64,000 nucleotides of DNA from contig NZ_JAHFVK010000001.1 of NCBI RefSeq assembly GCF_018599195.1, forward strand, positions 992,001 through 1,056,000, read 5' to 3'. The stretch is from Croceibacterium selenioxidans (lineage in GTDB: Bacteria; Pseudomonadota; Alphaproteobacteria; Sphingomonadales; Sphingomonadaceae). Positions 34,607-40,421 of the stretch are shown here, piece after piece; positions within the stretch are counted from its first letter, which is position 1, and every line of letters starts with the position of its first letter. The position numbers and the translations under genes were made by a program. Below the pieces are notes generated by a model. It saw only the letters and a list, made by a program, of their open reading frames with translations. It was not told the DNA's origin and did no database searches.

Positions 34607-35506
34607 ATGAACCGCGACCCGTCCAAGAGCTTTCAGGACATGATCCTCGCGCTCCACGATTACTGGAGCGCCCAGGGCTGCCTGATCCTGCAACCCTACG
34701 ACATGCGAATGGGCGCAGGTACGTTCCACACCGCGACCACGCTGCGCGCTCTCGGGCCCGAGCCGTGGAACGCCGCATTCGTGCAGCCGTGCCGCCGTCC
34801 GACCGACGGCCGCTACGGCGAGAACCCCAACCGGTTGCAGCACTATTACCAGTACCAGGTGATCTTGAAGCCGAGCCCGCCAGACCTGCAGGAGCTTTAC
34901 CTCAAGAGCCTGGAAGTCATCGGCATCGATCCGCTCAAACACGACATCCGCTTTGTGGAAGACGACTGGGAAAGCCCGACGCTCGGCGCCTGGGGCCTGG
35001 GCTGGGAAGTCTGGTGCGACGGGATGGAGGTGACGCAGTTCACCTACTTCCAGCAGATGGGCGGCTTCGACTGCAAGCCTGTCTCGGGCGAGCTCACCTA
35101 CGGGCTCGAACGCCTGGCGATGTACATCCAGAACAAGGACAACGTGTTCGACCTCGACTTCAACGGCCGCGGGGTGACGTACGGCGACGTTTTCCTGGAG
35201 AACGAGAAGCAGATGTCGAAGTGGAACTTCGAGGTCGCCGATACCGAAGCGCTGTTCGACTTGTTCGCCAAGGCGGAGGCCGAATGCCGCAATGCCCTGG
35301 CTAACGACGTGCCGATCGCCGCCTATGAGCAGGCGGTCGAGGCGAGTCACGTGTTCAACCTGCTCCAGGCCCGCGGCGTGATCAGCGTGCAGGAGCGGGC
35401 TAGCTACATGGGCCGGGTGCGCGATCTCGCACGGGGCTCGTGCGAAGCCTACATGGCCAAAGAAGCCGATCGCTGGGCCAAGGACTACGCGGGGTGGACG
35501 GCATGA
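34607..35506 (+). CDS. glyQ: Glycyl-tRNA synthetase, alpha subunit
   Basis: The 299-residue catalytic subunit of the tetrameric bacterial GlyRS activates glycine and charges tRNA-Gly with GlyS. The family features are all there: [18 protein letters not shown] at the start (partial), [40 protein letters not shown] and [12 protein letters not shown] (pieces). It ends in ATGA overlap with glyS, so the subunits are translated in a coupled way. Confidence 0.97.
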
Positions 35507-37686
35507 CCGACTTCCTGCTCGAACTGCGCTGCGAGGAAATCCCCGCCAGGATGCAGGCCGGCGCGCGCGCCGATCTCGAAAAGCTGTTCCGCAAAGAGCT
35601 TGAAGCGGCAGGTGTCACCGCTGGCGCTATCACCGTCTGGTCGACCCCCCGTCGCCTGTCGCTGATCGCACGCGGCTTGCCCGAAGCGACCGAAGCGGTG
35701 CGAGAGGAGACCAAGGGACCCCGCGTCGGCGCTCCCCCGCAGGCTCTCGAAGGATTCTTGCGCAAGAGCGGCCTGACGCAAGACCAGCTCGAAGAGCGCG
35801 ACGGCGTGCTGTTCGCCGTGGTCGAAAAGCCGGGCAGGGCGGTCAAGGCCCTGCTGGCCGAGGCTATTCCCGCGATCGCACGCGCCTTCCCCTGGCCCAA
35901 GTCGATGCGCTGGGGTGCGGCTTCACTGACAACCGACAGTATCCGCTGGGTGCGCCCGCTGTCGGGCATCGTGGCGATCTTCGGCGAGGAACTGGTCGAA
36001 TGCACGGTAGGCGATGTTGCCAGCGGTTACATGACGCTCGGCCACCGGTTCCATCACGCTGGCCCGATCACCATCGGCAGCGTGGCGGATTATCAGGAGA
36101 AGCTGCGCGCCTGCCACGTGATCGTCGATCATGAGGAGCGGCAGAACCTGATCCGCTCGGGTGCGGCCAAAGCCGCGTCAGACGCCGGACTGGCGTTGAT
36201 CGAGGACGAAGGGCTGGTGATCGAGAATGCCGGTCTCACCGAATGGCCGGTGCCCTTGCTCGGCCGGTTCGAGGAGTCGTTTCTCGAGGTTCCGCCCGAG
36301 GTCATCCAGCTGACCGCCCGGATCAACCAGAAGTATTTCGTCTGTAATTCTCCCCTCCAGCTTGCGGAAGGAGCCGGGGTTGGGCCCGTTTCGGACGAAC
36401 GCGACACACCCACCTCTAACCCCTCCCGCAAGTGGGAGGGGGACAAGCTCGCCAATGCCTTTGTCTGCACCGCCAATATCGAGGCGAAGGACGGCGGCGC
36501 GGCGATCGTCGACGGCAACCGCAAGGTCCTGGCAGCGCGTCTCAGCGATGCGCGGTTCTTCTGGCAGCAGGATCGCAAGACTTTGTTGGCCGAGCAGGCG
36601 AAGAAGCTCTCGCGCATCACCTTCCACGAGAAGCTGGGCACGGTAGCCGACAAGGTCGAGCGGGTGGCAGAGCTGGCCGAATGGTTGGCGACGGAGGGTA
36701 TCGTACCGACCTGCGATCCCAAGCTCGCGCGTCAGGCGGCCGAGCTATGCAAGGCCGATCTCGTCACCGACATGGTTGGCGAATTCCCCGAACTGCAGGG
36801 CCTCATGGGCGGCTACTACGCCCGCGCCGAGGGTCTGCCTAACGCCGTCGCCGATGCGATCCGCGATCATTACAAGCCGGCCGGCCAGGGTGACGACGTG
36901 CCGACCGCGCCGGTGACGGTGGCGGTGAGTTTGGCGGACAAGCTCGATACCCTAAGCAGCTTCTTCGCGATCAATGAGAAGCCTACAGGGTCGAAGGACC
37001 CGTTTGCCTTGCGTCGTGCAGCTCTCGGAGTGATCCGGTTGATCGAGGCAAACGGGCTACGCATGCCTGTGGCCAAGGGTGAGCTTCTCGAATTCTTCGC
37101 CGACCGCCTCAAGGTGCAGCAACGCGAGGCCGGCGTGCGCCACGACCTGATCGATGCGGTGTTCGCGCTCGGCAACGAAGATGATCTCGTCCGCCTGCTC
37201 GCTCGCGTTCGTGCGCTCCAATCCTTCGTCGGCACCGAAGACGGCACCAACCTCCTCGCCGGCTACAAACGCGCCGCCAACATCCTCAAGAAGGAAGACT
37301 GGCGCGGGATCGAGGGCGAGATCGCCCGCACTGGCGAGGAAGACCCGCTGGCGCTGGTCGACGATCCCGACCTCGCGCCGGTGATCGCCGCAAAAATGGC
37401 GGAGCGGCATGGAAAAGAACTTTCCTACACGCCTGAACCTGCGGAAAAGGCCCTCATCGATGCGCTCGACTCAGCCGAGCCGGAGGCCAGTTCCAACATC
37501 GAAGCCGAGGCCTTCGAAGGCGCGATGGCCGCGCTTGCTTCACTGCGGGCGCCGATCGACCGGTTCTTTGACGAGGTAACGGTGAACGACGAGAATTCGG
37601 ATAAGCGCGCAGCCCGCCTCGACCTGCTTGCACGGTTCCGTGCTGCAGTGCACAGCGTGGCGGATTTCTCGCGCATCGAAGGGTAA
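35503..37686 (+). CDS. glyS: Glycyl-tRNA synthetase, beta subunit, with an in-frame repeat insertion
   Basis: The 727-residue beta subunit binds tRNA-Gly. ATG 35503 overlaps the glyQ stop (ATGA) and begins the conserved [17 protein letters not shown]. Typical segments follow, such as PMPLPK-like [15 protein letters not shown]-like MTLGHRFHH, and the HD-like and anticodon-binding C-terminal region. Residues 282-314 interrupt the usual YFVC...[12 protein letters not shown] stretch with about 30 extra residues encoded by the palindromic repeat at 36350-36443. The frame stays open, so the protein is probably functional with an exposed loop. The length is about 30 residues more than expected for the family. 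Confidence 0.96.
36350..36443. repeat. REP-like palindromic element inside glyS
   Basis: About 94 bases whose two ends are imperfect inverted copies: the left end CTCCCCTCCAGCTTGC matches the reverse complement of the right end (TCCCCCTCCCACTTGC) at 12 of 16 positions. Each half also folds on itself; the right half contains CCCCTCCC-GCAAGT-GGGAGGGG. The layout resembles the intergenic REP-type palindromes of many alphaproteobacteria. It lies wholly inside the glyS reading frame without a stop. No second copy was noticed in this window. Confidence 0.75.

Positions 37687-37745: not shown

Positions 37746-40417
<2,672 letters not shown>

Positions 40418-40421
<4 letters not shown>

Follow-up and report, generated by a model that had tools for sequence, protein, structure and literature searches.

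The glyS gene of Croceibacterium selenioxidans, encoding the beta subunit of glycine–tRNA ligase, contains within its reading frame one copy of a palindromic repeat that is dispersed in the genome. At this codon and at two other loops of the same gene, relatives carry repeat-like inserts, which mostly belong to other, unrelated families. In our judgement the glyS element is probably a dispersed non-coding palindromic repeat, and the pattern as a whole is probably the product of ongoing hairpin insertion that selection filters down to permissive, disordered loops. The window, that is, the whole stretch of DNA analysed, comprises 64,000 nucleotides, and the positions used below and in Table 1 are counted from its first letter.

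Table 1. Positions in the window of glyS, its neighbours and the insertion sites
Feature	Position	Strand	Basis
glyS, glycine–tRNA ligase beta subunit, 727 aa, host gene	35503..37686	+	translation; TIGR00211, E 1.6e-203; PF02092 and DALR_1
glyQ, insertion control	34607..35506	+	
ppdK, insertion control	37746..40421	+	
Inserted repeat element, site 1, about residues 282–314	36346..36444	+	inverted repeat, genomic copies, RNA fold, alignment with relatives
First hairpin unit of the element, imperfect CCCCTCCaGCTTGCGGaAGGaG	36352..36373	+	alignment with 25 other copies
Core between the arms; length and sequence differ among copies	36385..36408	+	
Second hairpin unit of the element, CCCCTCCCGCAAGTGGGAGGGG	36420..36441	+	perfect inverted repeat; copy alignment
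Site 2, codons 404–405; empty in own genome, filled in 43 of 130 GlyS	36712..36717	+	
Site 3, codons 599–620; own genome without repeat, repeat-like inserts in at least 21 relatives	37297..37362	+	

The element is a double hairpin of about 95 bp, in which two inverted CCCCTCCCGC/GCGGGAGGGG units enclose a variable core. Its arms (36352–36384 and 36409–36441) are 33 nt long each, 73% complementary and separated by a 24-nt spacer. The RNA fold has an energy of -50.4 kcal/mol (z -3.92), and none of 200 shuffled sequences folded as well. An earlier note, made from the sequence alone, had described a palindrome read through in frame within glyS, and the arms, the fold and the open frame of 727 codons bear this out. 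The internal hairpin that it pointed to, CCCCTCCC/GGGAGGGG, is also present and perfect (36420–36441), but it is only the second unit of a double hairpin, an inverted REP-like pair with a variable core. In the corresponding region of the closest relative (G001, 92% identity) there are 20 residues as against 49 here, a net gain of 29 sense codons, close to the 30 or so extra residues without stop or frameshift counted in the earlier note.

The GlyS frame is uninterrupted from its first to its last position, and both flanks of the insert are conserved. The insert lies at the turn between two strands, in the region YFVC...KLANAF, and is flanked by the equivalents of residues 289 and 296 of PDB 7yse, the best solved beta subunit, which aligns on both sides and which we take to be the E. 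coli structure. An AlphaFold2 prediction with 36 GlyS sequences (mean pLDDT 87.4) has strands on either side of the insert (279–283 and 315–324), with pLDDT below 50 at residues 288–312, within the insert, and at residues 606–620, within site 3. The insert is thus predicted to form a disordered loop between two strands. Site 2 corresponds to a predicted loop between helices 381–397 and 406–415. By the 7yse alignment and the limits given for the E. coli HD domain in the part of PMC8464048 available to us (341–540), it appears to fall within that domain. Could it instead be an assembly error, or mark a decaying glyS accompanied by a second working copy? We found no point in support of this, and its probability appears negligible given the open frame, the conserved flanks and the score against the TIGR00211 model, the state of the genome (99.98% complete, 4 contigs, one full-length glyS among the matches listed) and the presence of like inserts in dozens of other genomes.

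GlyS of the four congeners read (G001, G003, G004 and G005) lacks the insert. Site 1 is empty in G001, G004 and G005 and in most other genera read; G003 has a short, different insert there. No other GlyS read has residues 282–314, so that the earlier note's condition for refutation, their presence in distant alphaproteobacteria, does not apply, although a distant Sphingomonadaceae assembly (L142) has a repeat of the same family and a similar peptide at the same site. Since the two nearest neighbours of L142 in the tree have no insert at site 1, its copy looks like a separate insertion. A repeat copy probably entered glyS of C. selenioxidans after the lineage split from its nearest sequenced relatives. 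Such an insertion, placed in a beta-hairpin turn, a multiple of three in length and with an open frame, would presumably be translated and tolerated in a stable protein.

In the genome as a whole the element has 50 BLAST matches (40 of 67 candidates scored), which correspond to about 40 distinct places; the matches outnumber the places because several copies, being palindromic, are hit twice, once on each strand or once through each arm. The earlier note's expectation of further genomic copies was therefore correct. At least 86 bp are present in 26 copies, and in their consensus CCCCTCCCGCTTGCGGGAGGGG and its partner form two 22-nt hairpins in inverted orientation. Inward of each hairpin lies GGGGGTGGG/CCCACCCC, followed by a core that varies in both length and sequence. 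The repeat is a double REP-like unit of about 90–110 bp. It has matches in 16 of the 59 genomes, all within the taxonomic family of the window's organism, and copy numbers from these cross-genome searches are lower bounds, with at most 15 candidates scored per genome.

The context of the copies was judged by ORF, GC3 and Pfam, independently of annotation. The family resides mainly outside genes, as had been supposed for a REP-like repeat, and three of the 26 copies lie inside conserved genes, all in frame: those of glyS, of valS (PRK05729, 1168.9 bits) and of a gene for a biotin carboxylase-type subunit (L048 in the own genome, G000), where the element is inside the Biotin_carb_C match. A fourth in-frame copy is found in dnaE2 (L061, G000); its BLAST match covers only 33 nt, with a hairpin fold over its length. 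A crude gene model had flagged six copies as intragenic, and three of them (L005, L042 and L050) were rejected on finding that the Pfam domain starts at or after the element, which places the element upstream. In three other spanning ORFs (L009, L045 and L060) the Pfam domain likewise begins after the element, and for those of L002 and L052 the Pfam search gave no match. By composition, 57.7% of all frames (six per copy, 26 copies) are open, so that an open frame alone is weak evidence.

A search for the RAYT-type Y1 transposase domain (PF01797) gave no match in G000, and mobilisation by a RAYT within this genome was rejected on that basis; the domain has a match in 12 of the 59 genomes. At the junctions compared between G000 and G001 the flanks are too diverged for a target-site duplication to be recognised, and no parent transposase was found.

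We compared GlyS from 51 of the 59 genomes (own and relatives) and from 80 loci, in total 130 distinct sequences after removal of one duplicate (L130, identical to G019); glyS was fragmented or unmatched, and left out, in G002, G012, G035, G036, G042, G048, G053 and G054. A narrower group of 102 GlyS joins the 33 from genomes of the window's taxonomic family with 69 loci, these being the 80 minus the duplicate and minus ten of other orders. A few of the 69 are labelled only Alphaproteobacteria, Proteobacteria or Rhodobacterales and were placed in the clade by the tree. Repeat-like inserts occur at three positions, sites 1, 2 and 3. Site 1 (around codon 283) is filled in six of the 130: the own genome, G049, L126, L142, L164 and L189. 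The insert of G049, which belongs to another family of the order, is a PELVEG-type repeat. At site 2 (codon 404/405), 43 of the 130 are filled, seven partial and 80 empty; for the group of 102 the numbers are 43, six and 53. "Filled" here denotes a segment of at least 45 residues, and 39 of the 43 belong to multi-member clusters. Within the same 102, site 1 is filled in five, site 3 in 21 and any of the sites in 50; the count for site 3 is a lower bound, as at least two repeat inserts (G011 and L131) escaped the filter. Among other families of the order, one of 18 GlyS has a filled site.

Several further inserts were seen in the same sequences. Sphingorhabdus soli (L164) carries repeat-like inserts in all three GlyS loops, together with a PELVEG-type repeat in frame in ppdK. 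A single repeat-like insert lies around codon 186 in L189. In glyS of Brevundimonas halotolerans (L200) there is a hairpin-rich insert of 32 residues around codon 441, which suggests that the effect may extend beyond Sphingomonadales. Around residue 525, many loci have lengthy inserts (up to about 80 residues) that are specific to lineages and not palindromic; we considered these as repeats and rejected them, none being hairpin-rich in 92 rows (lowest z -1.5), and they are apparently ordinary variable segments.

Clustering of the insert DNA by single linkage (blastn, E <= 1e-4) produced six multi-member families and 11 singletons, some of the latter not repeats. One family may occupy several sites and one site may hold several families. 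The own family (C4) is found at site 1 in the own genome and L142, at site 2 in L122, L140, L142 and L148, and at site 3 in L136, and the inserts at site 2 represent at least five repeat families. Genomic dispersal was assessed for three of the six families, C4, C0 and C5, each of which proved to be spread over many genomes; with the same limit of 15 candidates per genome, C0 has matches in 27 of 59 genomes and C5 in 28 of 59, mostly short.

We then placed the inserts on a quick tree (LG+G4) built from 603 GlyS columns without the insert sites, with 39 of its 127 inner branches drawn open. With the seven partial site-2 rows excluded and gains not separated from losses, site 2 shows 26 changes between filled and empty and 41 changes of family state for 43 filled tips. 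When family labels were shuffled among the filled tips, the mean was 38.9 changes (range 33–42), so that related species show no detectable sharing of families. Merging families at site 2 gave 40 or 37 changes, as against shuffled means of 37.7 and 35.0. Sister pairs differ as well: G011 has C0 where L132 has C1, and L178 has C1 where L186 has C0. Which family occupies site 2 is thus not detectably passed on along the tree, and glyS alleles may have been exchanged. At site 1 there are six changes for six filled tips.

These results bear on the idea of one ancient insertion per site, inherited ever since, whose repeat was afterwards replaced by other repeats through conversion. Many filled site-2 alleles do have in common a downstream "EEL/xxL" motif that is lacking in empty alleles, and such shared residues on the downstream side of the inserts are what an ancient insertion might leave; the motif may also reflect shared history or exchange of glyS alleles. 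However, the families are unrelated in sequence, which makes homologous conversion hard, their labels cluster on the tree no more than they do after shuffling, and site 1 changed as many times as it has filled tips. We therefore regard a single ancient insertion as very improbable.

Another possibility is that the inserts are functional and that insertions are favoured, either as a disordered linker that tunes the synthetase or as an mRNA hairpin that delays translation from one domain to the next. Parallel insertions at the same loops of GlyS and ValS would fit a function, as would the strong RNA hairpins of 31 of the 43 site-2 inserts (z <= -2 relative to other windows of the same gene), the remaining 12 not being hairpin-rich. 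Yet 59 of the 102 GlyS do without a full site-2 insert (53 empty, six partial), among them that of the own genome, the peptides are unrelated, sister species differ or are empty, and the hairpin comes from the repeat itself. Function of the peptide or the hairpin has no positive support, and we consider it improbable; the peptide would more simply be without one. The related proposal of the earlier note, that the element may be evolving as a peptide source, is not borne out: the four congeners read lack the insert, it is predicted to be disordered, and what relatives have in the equivalent loops is mostly unrelated peptides from unrelated repeats. A literature search with the peptide motifs of the inserts returned nothing related.

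How unusual is glyS in taking up such DNA? In the same 80 loci, the adjoining control genes glyQ and ppdK were found in 76 and 71, respectively, with a median ppdK coverage of 828 of 891 residues. Differences in length of at least eight residues were seen in six glyQ (one shorter and five longer, with four of the six from outside Sphingomonadales) and in two ppdK (one shorter, one longer). The longer ppdK (L164, +45) contains the in-frame PELVEG-type repeat, the only such insert among the 71. Against one insert in 71 ppdK, the 43 filled of 102 at a single glyS codon suggest that permissiveness alone may not explain the concentration. ValS was read in 30 of the 59 genomes, at the loci of best matches. 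Its loop LGWPE...HYPND contains an insert of 21–47 residues in nine of the 30, including the own genome (L207–L212, L226, L231 and L232). Several of these inserts belong to different repeat families, and the hairpin z is -3 or lower in six cases and -1.9 to -0.2 in three; in G019, ValS has an insert at another loop. The effect is not confined to GlyS.

A second kind of DNA was found at site 2. In four genomes the insert starts with a near-exact 3′ end of a tRNA of the same genome, running from the T-stem to the CCA end: tRNA-Met(cat) in G003 (24/26), tRNA-Asn(gtt) in Novosphingobium naphthalenivorans (25/26) and tRNA-Arg(cct) in both G033 (24/25) and Sphingomonas mali (23/25). All are in frame at the same codon (loci L072/L202 for G003, L126/L205, L101/L240 for G033 and L146/L239 for S. 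mali) and have nearly the same 5′ border, with short microhomology. A repeat follows the tRNA piece within about 15 nt in three of the four, and in S. mali the tRNA piece stands alone. The assignment is based on matches to tRNA genes of the own genomes, a T-arm score by itself not being decisive (values of 17–18 are reached by unrelated coding DNA). A search of eight GlyS loci against Rfam at E up to 5 gave 13 weak matches, none above the gathering score and none to a tRNA. L192 has a tRNA-Met-like piece at site 2 and is a probable fifth case.

The present tRNA genes do not have these repeats downstream in the 60–204 nt shown. A tRNA gene followed by a VERSRDT-type repeat within 30 nt was considered as donor and rejected, with no instance in the 59 genomes by one strict pattern, which would also miss the glyS copy of G003 (GC where the pattern asks for TC). 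Mobility of the repeats does not explain the tRNA ends, whose presence at one codon in four genomes is a physical clue to the mechanism.

The tRNA ends also bear on the idea of a true hot spot, in which the structure of DNA or nascent RNA, replication or repair would make glyS site 2 capture hairpin nucleic acid regardless of what the protein tolerates. The concentration at one codon in 43 of 102 sequences, the five or more unrelated families and the absence of detectable family inheritance are all consistent with this, as are the near-exact own tRNA ends (Met, Asn and Arg) with their nearly common border and microhomology, and the S. mali tRNA end without a repeat. On the other hand, other positions of GlyS and the ValS loop behave alike, sites 1–3 all lie in loops, as selection alone predicts, and no common target motif has been established. 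On balance a hot spot of this kind seems rather unlikely. Still somewhat less probable, in our view, is a more specific version, in which GlyS loop 2 would be an order-wide capture site for REP dimers and tRNA 3′ ends, served by an undescribed hairpin- or RNA-guided insertion process in the gene of a tRNA-charging enzyme.

Insertion followed by selective filtering, the reading that we prefer, accounts for the empty sites and the intact frame, for disorder and rapid turnover, and for the parallel in ValS. Many families of hairpin DNA would insert often across the order, and selection would remove the insertions save in-frame ones in a few loops, three in GlyS and one or two in ValS. Old copies would then decay or be lost, and new, unrelated ones would follow. 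Filtering accounts less well for the crowding of inserts at one codon and for the tRNA ends, and these point to a capture process with a site preference. Whichever process dominates, translated repeats have so far been the subject of scattered reports, whereas here dozens of parallel natural insertions are found in one essential enzyme across one order. Insertions at fixed codons, with ppdK and glyQ as adjoining controls, make insertion frequency and speed of turnover testable, along with the relative roles of protein tolerance and target choice and the question of how repeats lacking a known transposase are moved.

Among the closest known parallels are the Rickettsia palindromic elements (RPEs), which the part of PMC10969869 available to us describes as palindromic repeats of several families, about 150 bp long (about 95 bp for the own repeat), inserted in frame in conserved, unrelated genes. 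The system described here is similar in the in-frame insertion into conserved genes of an alphaproteobacterium (for the own repeat glyS, valS, biotin carboxylase and dnaE2) and in its several families, but differs in that several families recur at one codon of one gene across genera. RPE models, which NCBIfam presumably includes, matched neither GlyS nor the inserts of four relatives at E up to 1. The comparison with Rickettsia made in the earlier note is thus apt for what happens, in-frame insertion, and does not extend to the sequences.

Small, non-autonomous, palindromic and dispersed, the own repeat also resembles bacterial MITEs; a parent transposase was not found for it, and the junction flanks are too diverged for a target duplication to be recognised. 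A further comparison is with GTAG and CGTC REPs, which, according to the part of PMC3733652 available to us, are short hairpins, often in inverted pairs, that are mostly intergenic and in some cases lie in ORFs. More than half of the intragenic REP inserts reported there encode 20–30 residues, and their hosts include DnaE2 and tRNA synthetases of E. litoralis and S. alaskensis, the latter not specified in the main text; recB of two Xanthomonas has different REPs at about the same site. The own repeat is likewise an inverted pair of 22-nt units in about 40 places, as in REPs and BIMEs, but the associated RAYT (Y1) transposase was not found in the own genome. Its family consensus lacks the unpaired GTAG at the hairpin foot, and it also lacks the CGTC (TGTC, CCTC) foot of the CGTC REPs, whose stem of 8–9 bp opens with A/T pairs; its own ends are TCTCCCC and GGGGGAC and its stem starts with G–C pairs. 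By eye, CGTC...GACG ends are visible in several site-2 inserts of cluster C1 from other species.

In a literature lying mostly outside subscription journals, our searches met with no description of inserts recurring across the order at fixed GlyS or ValS codons, or of tRNA ends there. Order-wide recurrence, turnover and tRNA-end capture are likewise not described for intragenic REPs in the part of PMC3733652 available to us. Judging by that same source, Sphingomonadales were already known to have REPs of the translated kind; what is new is their recurrence and turnover at fixed codons and the capture of tRNA ends.
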